Notes under the pieces: generated by a model
What the model was told of the DNA's origin: nothing
The model's database searches: none
The model's input: the letters and a program-made list of their open reading frames with translations, nothing else
Part shown: in pieces, positions 495 to 5,918 of the stretch
Numbering within the stretch: position 1 is the stretch's first letter
Layout: every line of letters starts with the position of its first letter
Origin: Candidatus Cloacimonadota bacterium
GTDB taxonomy: Bacteria > Cloacimonadota > Cloacimonadia > JGIOTU-2 > B8-G9
Direction: 5' to 3'
Assembly: GCA_003647765.1 (NCBI GenBank)
Contig: QMNM01000104.1
Location: 1-5,918 of the forward strand
Length of the DNA stretch: 5,918 nucleotides
Position numbers and translations under genes: made by a program

Positions 495-630
495 CATCTC
501 CATTAAAAATTGCTATTGTTGGTCCGTTTGTATCTATCGTAGCCACAGAAAGTAATGCGTAGTGCGATGAGCAAAAACTTTGAGGAATATACACAATTTT
601 TAAAATGGTAGAAAATGGATAAAACAACAT
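487..630 (-). pseudogene. Weak minus-strand frame of 47 codons, possible gene remnant
   Basis: On the minus strand, ATG at 630-628 opens a frame ending with TAA at 489-487. The C-terminal residues read like real protein (SVATIDTNGPTI then AIFNGDVD), whereas the plus-strand reading of the same DNA (Cys/Trp/Tyr-rich) does not. The frame overlaps the first 16 bases of the regulator gene in antisense, lacks an evident SD, and is followed by the hairpin at 402-439. I do not recognise a family. It may be the decayed tail of a longer gene or chance. Confidence 0.2.
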
Positions 631-3600
631 TACAAACTTTTCTTAATAATAATCATTTACCATACACAGTAATCTCTTTAGTCCATAAGACAGAACATCA
701 TAGCATTTATAAAGTAAAAAACCTGATTACACAAAAGATTGAGATTCTGAAATGGTTGAGTAAAACTGATTTGGATTCAATTAAACGAATAAGAAATGAA
801 TATAATATTCTGACATATCTTGATTTTCCAACACTTCCAAAAGCCAGCAGGTTGTTTTATATAAAAGAAGGGATTTTCTTTACGCAAGAATATTGTCCAG
901 GAAAAGCTCTAACGACTTTTGCGAATGGTCAAGAAGAGAATATTATTTGTGAGATTGCTGGAAAAATTATTCTCACTTTTGCTTATTTACACAGCCAACA
1001 AATCATTTATCGTGATGTTAAACCGAGTAATATTTTAGTATCTTCTGATGGAAAGATAAAGATAGTTGACTTCAATTTAGCAGTCAAAAGCAGAGAAATT
1101 GGAGAATCGCCTGATACTCACGGCACAATAGGCTATCTTGCTCCAGAAATCATAAATGGTGAAAAACCTAGTTTCCAGAGTGATATTTATGCTGTTGGCG
1201 TTTTACTAACCGAGATGTTAAGCGGAAGGAATCCGTTCTTATGTGATAGTATTGAAGATACAATAGATGCTCATCTTAATCTTGATTTTGAAATGCATTG
1301 TCCAGAATGGCAAAAGTTGACTCACCAATGGCAAAATATCTTGAAAAAAAACCTGCGTAAAAACCCTAAATATCGCTATAATTCCTTTTTACAAATGTAT
1401 GAGGAATATCAAAAAGCATTTCCTGAACAAGCATCAAACCTGACTGATTGGTATTTAAGAAATCTGAGTAATTCTTTGCCAGTTTATTTTGCAAGCAAAA
1501 ATGTAATCAAGGACTTTCAGAGAAGAAATTCCCATTACAAAATAATTAGTTCTTCTTCTATTGAGATGAGCGAGAAAGCATTACAACAATTAAGACCAAA
1601 ATTAGAGTCAGAAGGTGTTTTTATTTATCATATCTTTCCTCCATCAAAACATGATGCCTTACAATTTTTCTACAAAATCGTTAAAGACATACTGCTTTTG
1701 GCTGATTTGGAAAAATCAAAAAGAGAAAAGATAAATTCATTACTAAATGCGTTCATAGAACAGGAAACTAAGGAAAAAGAAAAACAATTTTATGAAAATT
1801 ATATAGTTGATCTTTTTGCAGAATTATTGGGATATTTACCAAAAAACTGTATGATTTTTATTCATCGCTTGAATGAACTGCCTACAAAGATTCTGAATAC
1901 ACTTGTGGAAAAAATAGATGGCTCACATCAAAATAAAAAGCAATCTATTATTTTTAGTTTATCGCAAAATGCTTCTAATAGTAAAGATATTATAGCAAAC
2001 ATTTACAGGTTATCATCTCAGAGCATATCGGAAAATCTTATACAAATTGAGGATTATACTCTGGAACAAATCCAAACTATTCTAAAAGATAAATTCAACA
2101 TCTCCAAAGAAGCGAGTTATAAAGTTGGTGAGAAATTATCAGAAGCAAGTGATGGTAATTATCTTATTTTATCAGAATCATTAAAACAGATACTTAATAG
2201 TAAATATTTTCATCTGACTAATGGAGAGTGGCAATGTGATTATCGTAAATTGTTCAAATATATCGGGACATCTAAGTATATCGGCATAGCATCTTTACAA
2301 GCATTCTATCAGGAAAAAATAGATAAATTAAGTGCGGATGAAAGAGAAGTTTTGGAATTAGTTGCCTGCTATAATGAGCCATTTAATTTAGAAATATTAT
2401 CTAAAATGAGCAAACAAGATTTACCAAAAATTAGCAGAATCGTTTATAATCTTATTCAGAAAAACTGCCTTATTTCAGCAGAAAAAGAGATAAAATTCAC
2501 AAGCAATATTTTTGCAGATTTTGTTAGAACTACTGCAACGACCTTAGAAGGTCGTTCTACCAGCCTAAAAAAGTATTATCAGTTGATTGCTGAATATCTG
2601 TCTTCTCAGCCCAAAATATCCAATGAAGAACATTTCACTATTGCTAATTTCTGGGAAAAAGCAGGAAATTTATCAGAAGCAAAGAGGCATTATTTTTGCA
2701 TAAATTATGATGATACTCTACTTGATAATCAACTACTTAATTCCATCTGGAGAAGAATGTTTAGCTGGAAAATATTGTCGGATGATGACAGGATTATAAT
2801 TATTAGAAAGATAATTAATACTGAGTTAAGTATGAGAAATTATAAAAATTTCAAAGAGGATCTAGAAACTTTCAAAAAATTAGTTAGCAAAAGCCCACAC
2901 AAAGAATTAAATGCAGAAATAGCATTCATAGAGTTTTATTATTATTTATTTGGACTGAATGATTTTGATAATGTAACAAAACTTTCTCCGGAAGTTATCA
3001 AGATTTGTAAGGAGTTTAATAGTAATGAATTTCTTTCCAAGACATATCTTGTGCTTTATTTAAAGAGTTTTTGGGAAGGGAATTATATTGAGGCAGAGAA
3101 ATACATAAAATCAGCATATAGAGTATCGTCAAAATATAGAATCACGAGTGCTACTATACTAAGTTTAAGATATATTGGACAATTATATCTGCGAATGCAT
3201 AATACAAAGAAAGCAGAGAAGTTTTTTAAAAAGTTATATGAATACTATGAACAAAATCCTAAAGGAATATTTCAGGATTATACAATAAATATACATAAAC
3301 AATGGAGTAAGATTTCTTGCTATAAATATAAGGACATACAAGAAGCCCTGTCAGAATGTGATAAGGGCTATAAAATGGCTGAAGAAGTATTTCTTAATGA
3401 TTATCAATTACAATTTATTATACTAAAATTATCTATTTTGATTGATAATAATAATTATAGAACTGCATTGTCTATCTTTCCGATTGCATACTCACTAAAA
3501 TTGAACATCTATTATGAACTTGCATTATTAGAGTTGAAAATTAGTTTATTCATAGGATTGGGTCTATTTGATTCTGCAATTCCTGAAATAAAACAAACAT

Positions 3601-5687
3601 TGGAAATATCTGAGAAGCACAGGTATTTTCTTACTTATATCAATACACTTCAAAAGTGGGGAAAAATTCTTGGTGAAAATGATTTTTCACAAGCAAGAGA
3701 TAAACTAAAAAAAGCAAAAGATATAGCAAAACAAATAAAAAACAAGCATGCTGAATATAGCATTATTTTACAAGAAATAGATATGCTACAAAGAGAAAAG
3801 AGATATAATAAAGCAATAAATCTATGCAAAACATTAATAGAGGAAAGCGAACAGATTCATAATCAATCATTATTGGCAAAGATATATTCAACTTATGGCT
3901 ATCTTTTAATGTTAAGAAACCAGCTAAAAGACGCACTTACTTATTCACAAAAAAGTTTGAATATAATAAAAAGAAGGGATGTATCTAAAAGCGAAATTGA
4001 GAGAATATATTATTATCATTATCTGATATTGCGATGCAGTAAAAATACTGATTTTGTTGAGAAAGGTAGAGAGTATCTAAAATGCGCGTTGGACGCACTT
4101 ATATTTAAATTAGACCAACTTAATGAGCCAGAAGAAAAGGAACATTTACTTCTTTTACATTTACCATCTCGGATTTGGGCTTCAGCATTACAAGAAAATC
4201 TAATTCAAACCAAGTATGATTTTAATCGCTCTTTATCAGCCATCCGCAACATTTTAACAGCAACCAATAATTTACCGCATTTATTGGACGAAATTATCAT
4301 CAGTATAAAGAACTTAACAGGAGCAGAAAGGTCTTTAATTGCATTAAAACAAGATGAGAAAATAACAATTGCAGCTCCACGAACTCATAAGGATAAATGG
4401 CAAAGAGAAATTAGTTTTGGCATCATAGAAAAAGTCATTAGCACGAGCAATCCAGTTTTTACCATTCATGCAAGTAATGAGGAGGCATTTCGTAAACACG
4501 AAAGCATAATCAGTCTGCAAATCTCTTCTATTATATGTGTGCCATTAAAATCTGGAAGGAAGTCCATTGGAGCAATTTATTTAGACGCAAGTCGTGTAAA
4601 TGCTTTTTCTTCACAGGATTATCTTTTCTGTCAGTCATTTGCAAATATTGCTGGCATTGCTATCAATAGATTAAAGCATCTAAAAAAATTGAGAGATGAG
4701 AACATATATTTAAGAGAAGAGATAGGCAAAAAATATGACTTTGATAGTTTAATAGGCAATTCCCCAGCATTTCGGCAAACTCTTGAACTTGTATCAATGG
4801 TTATACCTACGGAAGTAAGTGTTCTATTGAGTGGTGAGACCGGAACAGGAAAGGAGTTAATTGCCCGTGCAATTCACTTTAATGGACCAAGAAGGGATAA
4901 AAAATTTGTTACAATTGATTGTGGTAATTTGCCAGACACTATTTTGGAGTCAGAATTATTTGGACATATAAAAGGTGCGTTTACAGATGCAATTGAAGAT
5001 AAGAAGGGACTTTTTCAGGAAGCAGATGGTGGCACAATATTTTTAGATGAAATAGAAAATCTCTCACCCGGATTTCAGCAAAAACTATTGCGTGTTTTAC
5101 AATTCAACGAAATTAGAAAAGTTGGAAGCACACAAGTTATTCCTATTGATGTAAGGATTATTTCTGCGACCAATCATGACTTGCAGGAATTGGTAAAAAA
5201 TGGACTTTTTAGAGAGGACCTTTTCTTTCGTATCAATGTGTTCCAGATAACAATCCCACCGTTGAGAGAAAGAGAAAACGATGTGCTTTTACTTGCAGAA
5301 TTCTTTCTTAAACAGATAACAACAAAGATGAATAAAAAAGTAAAGGGATTAACTAAAGAATCTAAAATACAATTGCTGAAAAATGAATGGAAAGGGAATG
5401 TTAGAGAACTCCAAAATGTGATAGAAAGAGCAGTTATTATGGCTGAGAAAAATTCTTATATTGGTCCTGGTCTGTTAAATCTGCAAGAACAGACAACGGC
5501 TTTATCAATTGAGAATTTAATTGATTATGAGGGCTCTTATAATGAAATGGTTGATAAGTTCAAGTTAAAGATAATAGAAAGTGCCTTACAGCAAAATAGT
5601 TATAATAAATCAGCAGCAGCAAGACGATTGGGAATGTCTGTGCAGAATTTTAATCAAATATACAGTAGATTGAAGAGAAAAGGATGA
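615..5687 (+). CDS. Ser/Thr kinase - degenerate STAND ATPase - TPR - GAF - sigma-54 activator (AAA+/Fis) fusion
   Basis: This is a single 1690-residue cytoplasmic signalling protein; I see no signal peptide or membrane segment. Domains in order are: protein kinase (about 15-275), STAND/AAA-like module with lost Walker motifs (about 285-640), TPR-like helices (about 675-1165), GAF (about 1203-1352), sigma-54 AAA+ (about 1376-1625) and Fis-type HTH (about 1645-1690). The last three make a complete bacterial enhancer-binding protein, so the output is activation of sigma-54 RNA polymerase. The start is set by an in-frame TAG at 609-611, and ATG 615 is the only Met before the kinase domain. The nearest SD-like sequence (TGAGGA, 581-586) is about 28 bases upstream, too far for normal use, so initiation may be weak. 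A 5-codon out-of-frame ORF (605-622) overlaps the start. No frameshift is visible. Family precedent is PknK and Hstk-type kinases; the sigma-54 output is the unusual part. Domain calls are confident; signal and target genes are unknown. Confidence 0.97.
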   Translation: MDKTTLQTFLNNNHLPYTVISLVHKTEHHSIYKVKNLITQKIEILKWLSKTDLDSIKRIRNEYNILTYLDFPTLPKASRLFYIKEGIFFTQEYCPGKALTTFANGQEENIICEIAGKIILTFAYLHSQQIIYRDVKPSNILVSSDGKIKIVDFNLAVKSREIGESPDTHGTIGYLAPEIINGEKPSFQSDIYAVGVLLTEMLSGRNPFLCDSIEDTIDAHLNLDFEMHCPEWQKLTHQWQNILKKNLRKNPKYRYNSFLQMYEEYQKAFPEQASNLTDWYLRNLSNSLPVYFASKNVIKDFQRRNSHYKIISSSSIEMSEKALQQLRPKLESEGVFIYHIFPPSKHDALQFFYKIVKDILLLADLEKSKREKINSLLNAFIEQETKEKEKQFYENYIVDLFAELLGYLPKNCMIFIHRLNELPTKILNTLVEKIDGSHQNKKQSIIFSLSQNASNSKDIIANIYRLSSQSISENLIQIEDYTLEQIQTILKDKFNISKEASYKVGEKLSEASDGNYLILSESLKQILNSKYFHLTNGEWQCDYRKLFKYIGTSKYIGIASLQAFYQEKIDKLSADEREVLELVACYNEPFNLEILSKMSKQDLPKISRIVYNLIQKNCLISAEKEIKFTSNIFADFVRTTATTLEGRSTSLKKYYQLIAEYLSSQPKISNEEHFTIANFWEKAGNLSEAKRHYFCINYDDTLLDNQLLNSIWRRMFSWKILSDDDRIIIIRKIINTELSMRNYKNFKEDLETFKKLVSKSPHKELNAEIAFIEFYYYLFGLNDFDNVTKLSPEVIKICKEFNSNEFLSKTYLVLYLKSFWEGNYIEAEKYIKSAYRVSSKYRITSATILSLRYIGQLYLRMHNTKKAEKFFKKLYEYYEQNPKGIFQDYTINIHKQWSKISCYKYKDIQEALSECDKGYKMAEEVFLNDYQLQFIILKLSILIDNNNYRTALSIFPIAYSLKLNIYYELALLELKISLFIGLGLFDSAIPEIKQTLEISEKHRYFLTYINTLQKWGKILGENDFSQARDKLKKAKDIAKQIKNKHAEYSIILQEIDMLQREKRYNKAINLCKTLIEESEQIHNQSLLAKIYSTYGYLLMLRNQLKDALTYSQKSLNIIKRRDVSKSEIERIYYYHYLILRCSKNTDFVEKGREYLKCALDALIFKLDQLNEPEEKEHLLLLHLPSRIWASALQENLIQTKYDFNRSLSAIRNILTATNNLPHLLDEIIISIKNLTGAERSLIALKQDEKITIAAPRTHKDKWQREISFGIIEKVISTSNPVFTIHASNEEAFRKHESIISLQISSIICVPLKSGRKSIGAIYLDASRVNAFSSQDYLFCQSFANIAGIAINRLKHLKKLRDENIYLREEIGKKYDFDSLIGNSPAFRQTLELVSMVIPTEVSVLLSGETGTGKELIARAIHFNGPRRDKKFVTIDCGNLPDTILESELFGHIKGAFTDAIEDKKGLFQEADGGTIFLDEIENLSPGFQQKLLRVLQFNEIRKVGSTQVIPIDVRIISATNHDLQELVKNGLFREDLFFRINVFQITIPPLRERENDVLLLAEFFLKQITTKMNKKVKGLTKESKIQLLKNEWKGNVRELQNVIERAVIMAEKNSYIGPGLLNLQEQTTALSIENLIDYEGSYNEMVDKFKLKIIESALQQNSYNKSAAARRLGMSVQNFNQIYSRLKRKG
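657..1439 (+). other. Domain: Hanks-type Ser/Thr protein kinase (residues 15-275)
   Basis: This is the N-terminal kinase domain. Visible catalytic residues are the ATP-binding Lys46 (EILKWL), the helix-C Glu62, the catalytic loop YRDVKPSN with Asp134, Lys136 and Asn139, and the Mg-binding Asp152. The P+1 segment GTIGYLAPE (170-178) and SDIYAVGV (189-196) are also intact. Two departures stand out: the Gly-rich loop (about 20-34) has no glycines, and the DFG motif reads DFN. All residues needed for phosphotransfer are kept, so activity is plausible. The lost glycines could reduce it or turn the domain into a binding module. Substrates are unknown; autophosphorylation or phosphorylation of the attached domains is an inference from the fusion. 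Confidence 0.95.
1467..2534 (+). other. Domain: STAND/AAA_16-like module with lost Walker A and B (residues 285-640)
   Basis: The region following the kinase matches the layout of the AAA_16/PknK-type STAND ATPase. It has a strand where the P-loop should be (YKIISSSS, 308-315) and a hydrophobic strand at the Walker B position (CMIFIHRLNE, 412-421). These are followed by IQIEDYTLEQIQTIL (477-490), SDGNYLILSESL (512-523, the usual 'GNP-hl-ell' element) and a winged-helix-like segment (about 571-640, including LSADEREVLELVA). The P-loop GxxGxGK[ST] is absent and the Walker B acidic pair is missing. The module therefore probably cannot hydrolyse ATP and may act as a scaffold or sensor. The assignment rests on motif order, not on a profile search. 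Confidence 0.7.
2537..2556. repeat. Perfect palindrome inside the regulator gene
   Basis: AACGACCTT (2537-2545) and AAGGTCGTT (2548-2556) are perfect 9-bp arms around AG. It codes for residues about 642-648, the junction between the winged-helix-like part and the TPR region. The encoded residues fit the expected helix spacing, so it is not an obvious insertion. Confidence 0.5.
2637..4109 (+). other. Domain: TPR-like helical repeat region (residues 675-1165)
   Basis: About 490 residues are predicted to be almost wholly helical and show the TPR spacing of paired helices of roughly 34-38 residues. Clear units include 809-840 (ending GNYIEAEKYIKSAYRV), 847-880 (NTKKAEKFFKKLYEYY), 970-1001 (LFDSAIPEIKQTLEIS), 1006-1043 (DFSQARDKLKKAKDIA), 1046-1083 (RYNKAINLCKTLIEES) and 1085-1120 (QLKDALTYSQKSLNII). 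Divergent units lie between 679 and 800. Such repeats bind peptides or partner proteins, and in STAND regulators they usually act as the sensing or oligomerising arm. The ligand cannot be told from sequence. Confidence 0.85.
4221..4670 (+). other. Domain: GAF sensor (residues 1203-1352)
   Basis: A GAF fold is indicated by the N-terminal helices (LSAIRNILTATNNLPHLLDE), the strand TGAERSLIALKQ, the central segment ending IICVPLKSGRKSIGAIYLD (about 1306-1324) and the closing helix QSFANIAGIAINRL. GAF domains sit in the same place in NifA- and FhlA-type activators, where they bind small molecules or sense metal or redox state and control the AAA+ ring. No cysteine or histidine cluster points to a metal or haem site. 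A short charged, probably coiled-coil linker (about 1351-1372) joins it to the AAA+ domain. Confidence 0.85.
4740..5684 (+). other. Domains: sigma-54-interacting AAA+ and Fis-type HTH (residues 1376-1690)
   Basis: The AAA+ domain is complete. It has Walker A GETGTGKE (1407-1414), loop 1 GAFTDA (1454-1459), Walker B GGTIFLDE with Asp1478 and Glu1479, and sensor I ATN (1518-1520). Putative Arg fingers are Arg1533 and Arg1539 in FREDLFFR, and sensor II is GNVREL with Arg1597. Loop 1 keeps Phe1456 and Thr1457, which contact sigma-54, but has Asp for the second Gly of GAFTGA. The C-terminal segment 1645-1690, with NKSAAARRLGMS, is a Fis-type helix-turn-helix that would bind enhancer sites. The ring should be ATP-active, in contrast to the N-terminal STAND module. 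Between them, around 1626-1645, is a short linker. Confidence 0.97.
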
Positions 5688-5833: not shown

Positions 5834-5918
5834 ATGTTAGCAAAACAGTTTAAGAGGAAGTTATTTATAATGATTGACATATTACCCAAAGAGAAGGTAA
5901 TTGAATTATTTGATTTTG
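5834..5918 (+). CDS. 5' end of a small protein, possibly an antitoxin-type protein (truncated by window end)
   Basis: An open frame of 28 codons starts at ATG 5834 and runs off the window. A strong Shine-Dalgarno AAGGAG (5820-5825) lies 8 bases upstream, and an in-frame TAG at 5831-5833 excludes an earlier start. A second ATG at 5870 also has a good SD (AGAGGAAG, 5853-5860), so the true start could be there. The visible residues include ILPKEKVIELFDF. This pattern, a helix then 'LP-x-E/D-K-hhE-hhDF', recalls the N-terminus of small antitoxins of the DUF2281 or related types. That resemblance is from memory and the fragment is short, so the product is tentative. The gene is 146 bases from the regulator gene and appears to have its own promoter region. 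Confidence 0.6.
   Translation, partial: MLAKQFKRKLFIMIDILPKEKVIELFDF

Follow-up and report, generated by a model that had tools for sequence, protein, structure and literature searches.

A kinase fold and a STAND fold without ATPase motifs precede a sigma-54 activator in one Cloacimonadota protein

The locus studied here raises the question of how a sigma-54 activator is controlled when a kinase fold, a STAND-like region and TPRs are joined to it in a single reading frame. Such activators usually answer to a two-component partner or to a small GAF, PAS or ACT sensor. The window (the whole stretch of DNA that was analysed, 5,918 nucleotides from a Candidatus Cloacimonadota bacterium) comprises all of C130, a short contig from a fragmented MAG that is in 360 pieces (1.97 Mb in total, completeness 88.8%), and the gene has a contig end on either side. 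Below, G, C and L with a number denote a genome, a contig and a locus, and G000 is the window's own genome. A first-pass annotation of this DNA had read kinase, STAND-like, TPR, GAF and enhancer-binding protein modules in one unbroken frame, and the frame was found as described, with the following features.

615-5687, + strand: fusion-protein ORF of 1,690 aa with an ATG start (kinase fold, pseudo-STAND, TPR, GAF, sigma-54 AAA+, Fis HTH)
657-1424, + strand: Hanks-type kinase fold, aa ~15-270 (Pfam Pkinase, phmmer, AF2, motif table)
1455-2531, + strand: pseudo-STAND, a STAND-like NTPase fold with winged helix, aa ~281-639 (hhalign, AF2, Foldseek, VIA)
1548-1577, + strand: Walker A-aligned site SSSSIEMSEK, aa 312-321 (alignment with relatives)
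3072-3977, + strand: TPR region by Pfam, aa 820-1121 (TPR_12, 2e-14; TPR_MalT, 4e-10)
4269-4664, + strand: GAF domain, aa 1219-1350 (GAF_2, 1e-8; GAF, 2e-8)
4749-5249, + strand: sigma-54 AAA+ activator domain, aa 1379-1545 (Sigma54_activat PF00158, 5e-66; structure matches)
4974-4991, + strand: loop 1 (sigma-54 contact) GAFTDA, a variant of GAFTGA, aa 1454-1459 (motif search)
5265-5465, + strand: enhancer-binding-protein AAA+ lid, aa 1551-1617 (AAA_lid_14, 1e-19)
5568-5675, + strand: Fis-type HTH, aa 1652-1687 (HTH_8, 5e-5)

This ORF is the only one longer than 60 aa in the window, which holds no other complete gene. A stop-free run of 1,690 codons has a chance of about 2e-66 at the base composition of the window, and the GC content by codon position (0.39/0.29/0.24) is coding-like. 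Misassembly as the source of the fusion was considered and rejected, because the same architecture is found in other genomes, for example in G091 (34% identity over 776 aa). A scan of the flanks for a sigma-54 promoter gave no good -24/-12 site, and an Rfam search gave no match. Upstream of the gene, positions 392-449 form an inverted repeat with 25-nt arms (AGCGGTTAGC ... GCTAACCGCT) that resembles a terminator hairpin; downstream, at 5834-5918, a small further ORF begins (MLAKQFKRKLFIMIDILPKEKVIELFDF...) behind an AAGGAG-like ribosome site and runs off the contig end. The contig end at positions 1-35 carries two short, nearly identical copies, ACCCGACTCGAGTTC and ACCCGAGTCGAGTTT; a genomic repeat may have halted assembly here.

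We regard the protein, with slightly better than even confidence, as a one-component sigma-54 activator in which the kinase-fold, pseudo-STAND and TPR half is an allosteric sensing platform. The C-terminal half is the more conventional one. A domain search, the check that the first-pass annotation had proposed, found both the kinase (8e-41) and Sigma54_activat (5e-66); the HTH_8 match scored 23.4 bits against a cut-off of 22, and solved structures of NifA, ZraR and NtrC1 match the activator domain. Walker A, Walker B, sensor I and the Arg fingers are all present in the AAA+ core (GETGTGKE at aa 1407, IFLDEI at 1475, ATNHD at 1518 and FREDLFFRINV at 1532), and the same genome encodes the sigma-54 gene rpoN (PF04552, 8e-44, on G000:C116). 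The earlier reading of a complete enhancer-binding protein as the output was right, with the correction that loop 1 reads GAFTDA rather than GAFTGA, the one departure from an otherwise intact core. In such a protein the Fis HTH would bind an upstream enhancer, the AAA+ domain would hexamerise and remodel the sigma-54 RNA polymerase, and the ring would be gated in cis by the GAF domain, as is the case for NorR and NifA; for NorR it is established that GAF gates the AAA+ loop (PMC2941729).

The loop 1 variant may bear on this gating. NorR with this same substitution (G266D) is fully constitutive, escaping GAF repression, and it retains enhancer binding and open-complex formation (PMC2941729), so that GAFTDA at aa 1454-1459 could be taken to free the AAA+ domain from GAF, leaving a largely constitutive activator whose arm sets only DNA targeting, stability or location. 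We consider this improbable, because GAFTDA recurs naturally: in a codon-variant census of 121 genomes of the class, with patterns identical but for one codon, Asp (GAFTDA) gave 29 matches and Gly (GAFTGA) about 285, the latter being summed per-genome counts. Among the carriers are ordinary activators of ~450-480 aa, so the variant need not mean lost control, and the GAF-AAA+ interface of the window protein is unlike that of NorR. A second activator of the same genome, on contig C190, also has GAFTDA. The idea that GAFTDA marks a dead activator was rejected on the 29 matches; recurring as it does across the class, the variant is no evidence of a dead gene and is, as judged from sequence, a natural minority variant there.

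The first-pass annotation had called the region that follows the kinase a STAND ATPase, and this part of its claim was overturned. Among the 25 families listed, no Pfam NTPase model matched between the kinase and the TPRs, even at E 10; the STAND fold with its winged helix and TPR sensor was found by profile-profile comparison and structure prediction alone. The window and G091 together aligned by hhalign with the STAND regions of HstK-type proteins over 353 columns (probability 95%, E 1.6e-8); the window alone gave a short match, in the winged-helix part only. The AF2 model of aa 262-720 (pLDDT 76) had 6mfv as its best PDB match in Foldseek (E 1.5e-7), with Apaf-1 at E 4e-7, and VIA matched it to 2qen and CED-4 (Z 18.6 for both; rmsd 4.4 and 4.8 over 307 and 325 aligned residues, respectively). 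This model was built from an alignment that included STAND relatives and is therefore not fully independent of the profile-profile result. The window has SSSSIEMSEK in the Walker A position, where relatives have GEKGVGKT or GESGIGKS, and the Walker B motif is absent (CMIFIHRLNE at its site). Residues ~281-639 are thus a STAND fold without ATPase motifs and, with both motifs lost, are not to be called a STAND ATPase. The STAND P-loop is also absent from the G025, G026, G028 and G091 fusions and from the G000:C73 fragment. Among HstK-type proteins of the class, many (L096-L115) have the Walker A Ser/Thr replaced (GEKGIGKK, GGDGLGKD), which suggests that these, too, may be weakened STAND ATPases. 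The helical region probably starts near aa 690, and Pfam places TPR_12 at aa 820-880 (2e-14) and TPR_MalT at aa 984-1121 (4e-10).

The kinase domain is confidently a kinase fold. Pkinase matches aa 30-256 (E 8e-41), phmmer aligns the domain with StkP (E 1.6e-25), and the AF2 model is complete and bilobal (pLDDT 92.5, pTM 0.90). The VAIK lysine, HRD aspartate, catalytic lysine and asparagine and DFG aspartate are all present (K46, D134, K136, N139 and D152 in the motif table), and helix C contains a Glu; an alignment of 19 relatives shows no change at K46, D134 or D152 and hardly any at K136 and N139. The Gly-rich loop is missing (SLVHKTEHHSIYK at that site), as is the DFG glycine (VDFN, i.e. 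DFN for DFG). These two absences by themselves are no proof of inactivity, and the window kinase may be active with an unusual nucleotide loop.

Relatives of the protein show in which settings such an arm occurs. Within the class, a kinase and a sigma-54 domain share one frame in the window, G000:C73, G025:C33, G026:C2, G028:C131 and G091:C10, a tally of at least five genomes that is a lower bound drawn from the kinase proteins listed. The nearest full-length relative is that of G091, with 34% identity over 776 aa and 27% over the kinase. No close full-length orthologue was found in 124 genomes, a scan of genome contigs with the window protein alone gave no match, and class-wide tblastn with aa 273-1210 gave only weak TPR or cyclase-STAND matches (e.g. 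in G016). In a tree of the GAF-AAA tail the window pairs with G091 (98/96) and the G025, G026 and G028 proteins form their own group (100/100); the tree does not unite the two.

Nearly all sampled genomes of the class have a kinase-less P-loop-TPR-GAF-sigma54 protein of ~1,420-1,480 aa, and most have a kinase protein of ~1,810-1,930 aa as well. The window's own genome encodes a protein of 1,870 aa on contig C11 with the Pfam order Pkinase-TPR-GAF-HisKA-HATPase, which agrees with the earlier remark that proteins of this kind typically have a regulatory or histidine-kinase output. The relatives of this C11 protein can be aligned with it in their STAND regions; those checked are HstK-like. In G033, G100 and G117, adjacent same-strand genes encode a kinase-STAND-TPR protein that has its P-loop and then a GAF-sigma54 protein (Pfam domains shown for G033 and G117). 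The adjacent-gene and histidine-kinase versions therefore indicate the same arm joined to different outputs. On contig C95 of the own genome (L079), three consecutive ORFs encode a kinase/P-loop protein of 409 aa, a TPR protein of 840 aa and a GAF-PAS-PAS-histidine kinase-receiver protein of 813 aa; this row represents either an HstK-like system in split form or a gene that has been frameshifted.

The architecture also occurs far from this class. Among the best 80 loci of a GTDB profile search (GAF-AAA-HTH), a kinase was present in one of 83 ORFs, that of L135 (1,589 aa, Pkinase-TPR-GAF-Sigma54-HTH_8), and genomes related to that of L135, a lineage with a GC content of 0.61-0.75, carry fusions of 1,553-1,934 aa in 18 of 31 cases (20 distinct ORFs). 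These fusions are intact and 35-79% conserved over their full length, and the lineage includes pairs that share 78-79% identity from end to end. A GxxxxGK[ST] motif before the activator was found in none of the 20, and the VAIK lysine is replaced by arginine in 18, being kept in L210 and L220; in several, the catalytic-loop lysine is gone as well (HGDLSPHN, HMDVSLGN, HGDVSPGN). Their middle region matches the STAND profile weakly (E 4e-4, 132 columns), so that 'pseudo-STAND' is less certain for them than for the window. The first-pass claim of an unusual fusion was accordingly weakened, as the architecture is carried by five or more genomes within the class and by 18 of the 31 distant ones; the open-access literature yielded no description or characterisation of a kinase and sigma-54 fusion. 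The kinase-to-sigma-54 architecture is widespread, uncommon in its assembly but ordinary in its parts, which are a GAF-type sigma-54 activator and an arm of the HstK/PknK type.

These relatives also weigh on whether the kinase is the switch. If it were an active Ser/Thr kinase, phosphorylation of itself or of the GAF/AAA+ part, in cis or in trans, could turn on sigma-54 transcription, which is what the first-pass annotation had inferred; the five retained residues (K46, D134, K136, N139 and D152), the high-confidence bilobal model with its Pkinase match of 8e-41, and the intact look of the related split-gene and HstK-type kinases all speak for this. The split-gene kinases retain Gly loop, P-loop and HRD-like loop, which suggests working enzymes in the split form, and together with the window kinase, which with its helix C Glu may well be active, they count against the sensing-platform reading. 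We nevertheless judge the kinase switch unlikely, though the most serious competitor. The window kinase lacks the Gly-rich loop and has DFN for DFG, the catalytic loop of the full-length G091 relative is broken (HGDLTLEN), the paralogue on C73 is broken as well, and the ATP-anchoring lysine is absent in 18 of the 20 distant fusions. That paralogue (L051:2-3325) is a second kinase-fold/GAF/sigma-54 fusion in the own genome, with HFDLKPEH and IDWS at its kinase motifs, and meets its contig end.

The degenerate STAND and kinase motifs might instead mean that the gene is decaying, its arm an HstK/PknK-like relic under relaxed selection, with only the sigma-54 part, or nothing, still of importance; the lack of a close full-length orthologue in the 124 genomes and a MAG family of one genome would fit. 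This we hold to be very improbable, since the frame of 1,690 codons is intact with coding bias, the kinase fold is predicted at pLDDT 92.5, and the same losses are seen in the distant fusions, which are intact and conserved (35-79%) over their full length.

In most relatives of the same architecture the kinase is missing the lysine that anchors ATP, or else other catalytic residues, and this, with the recurrent loss of the STAND P-loop, suggests that the fused arm mainly senses or holds rather than catalyses; judged from its relatives, the evidence favours such a non-catalytic sensor role for the window's arm also. According to the sensing-platform model, the arm would be a cytoplasmic allosteric receptor whose state is relayed to the GAF domain, with the TPRs binding a protein partner and the kinase pocket perhaps binding a nucleotide. 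It would need neither an ATP-driven STAND switch nor a histidine-kinase partner, and kinase catalysis, if present, might tune the switch by autophosphorylation but would not be the ancestral job of the arm. We tentatively suggest, short of an even chance, that these proteins form a widespread family, so far undescribed, in which a non-catalytic kinase fold together with a nucleotide-free STAND fold gates a sigma-54 activator. Were this true, transcription activators would have turned two retired enzymes into their receptor, and the kinase of the window would be one that is not yet, or not fully, retired. A kinase-fold/STAND-fold/TPR receptor in two distant lineages offers a self-contained system for how such an arm sets a GAF-AAA+ ring, with the adjacent-gene and histidine-kinase versions as natural module swaps; it bears on whether Hanks kinases directly control sigma-54 transcription, and raises the question of why a STAND ATPase disappears once fused to another AAA+ motor.

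Several known systems share parts of this design. GAF sigma-54 enhancer-binding proteins of the NifA/NorR/FhlA type have the same GAF, AAA+ and HTH order and motifs; among solved structures the best match is that of a Nif-specific regulatory protein (9qq6, E 2e-81), and the NCBIfam NifA and NorR models match, far below cut-off. The window adds to these ~1,200 N-terminal residues (kinase fold, pseudo-STAND, TPRs) and the GAFTDA loop. In a Rhizobium jaguaris plasmid (L057:2524-5792), genes for a ClpV-like ATPase, a GAF-sigma54 activator and a PpkA-like kinase adjoin in a T6SS-like setting. Its H1 match was rejected as a fusion, being two genes of that locus; the kinase lies next to the GAF-sigma54 activator as in the window, but as a separate gene and with no STAND-TPR arm. 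The iSTAND proteins, which are catalytically inactive and form the third component in MoxR-vWA systems, resemble the window in having a STAND fold minus catalytic motifs (PMC7159879), whereas the window's pseudo-STAND sits inside a transcription activator as one of its modules. STAND proteins of the PknK/MalT type, which the MalT paper places in one group (PMC4381067), share with the window a STAND fold followed by a TPR sensor and a DNA-binding output. However, the window has neither Walker A nor Walker B, so the MalT ATP/ADP switch cannot operate as known, and its output requires sigma-54. The HstK-type dual kinases (kinase-STAND-TPR-GAF-HisKA-HATPase) share the order of kinase, STAND-like region, TPR and GAF, but many of them keep the GxxGxGK that the window has wholly lost, and in place of their C-terminal HisKA and HATPase the window has a sigma-54 activator as its output.
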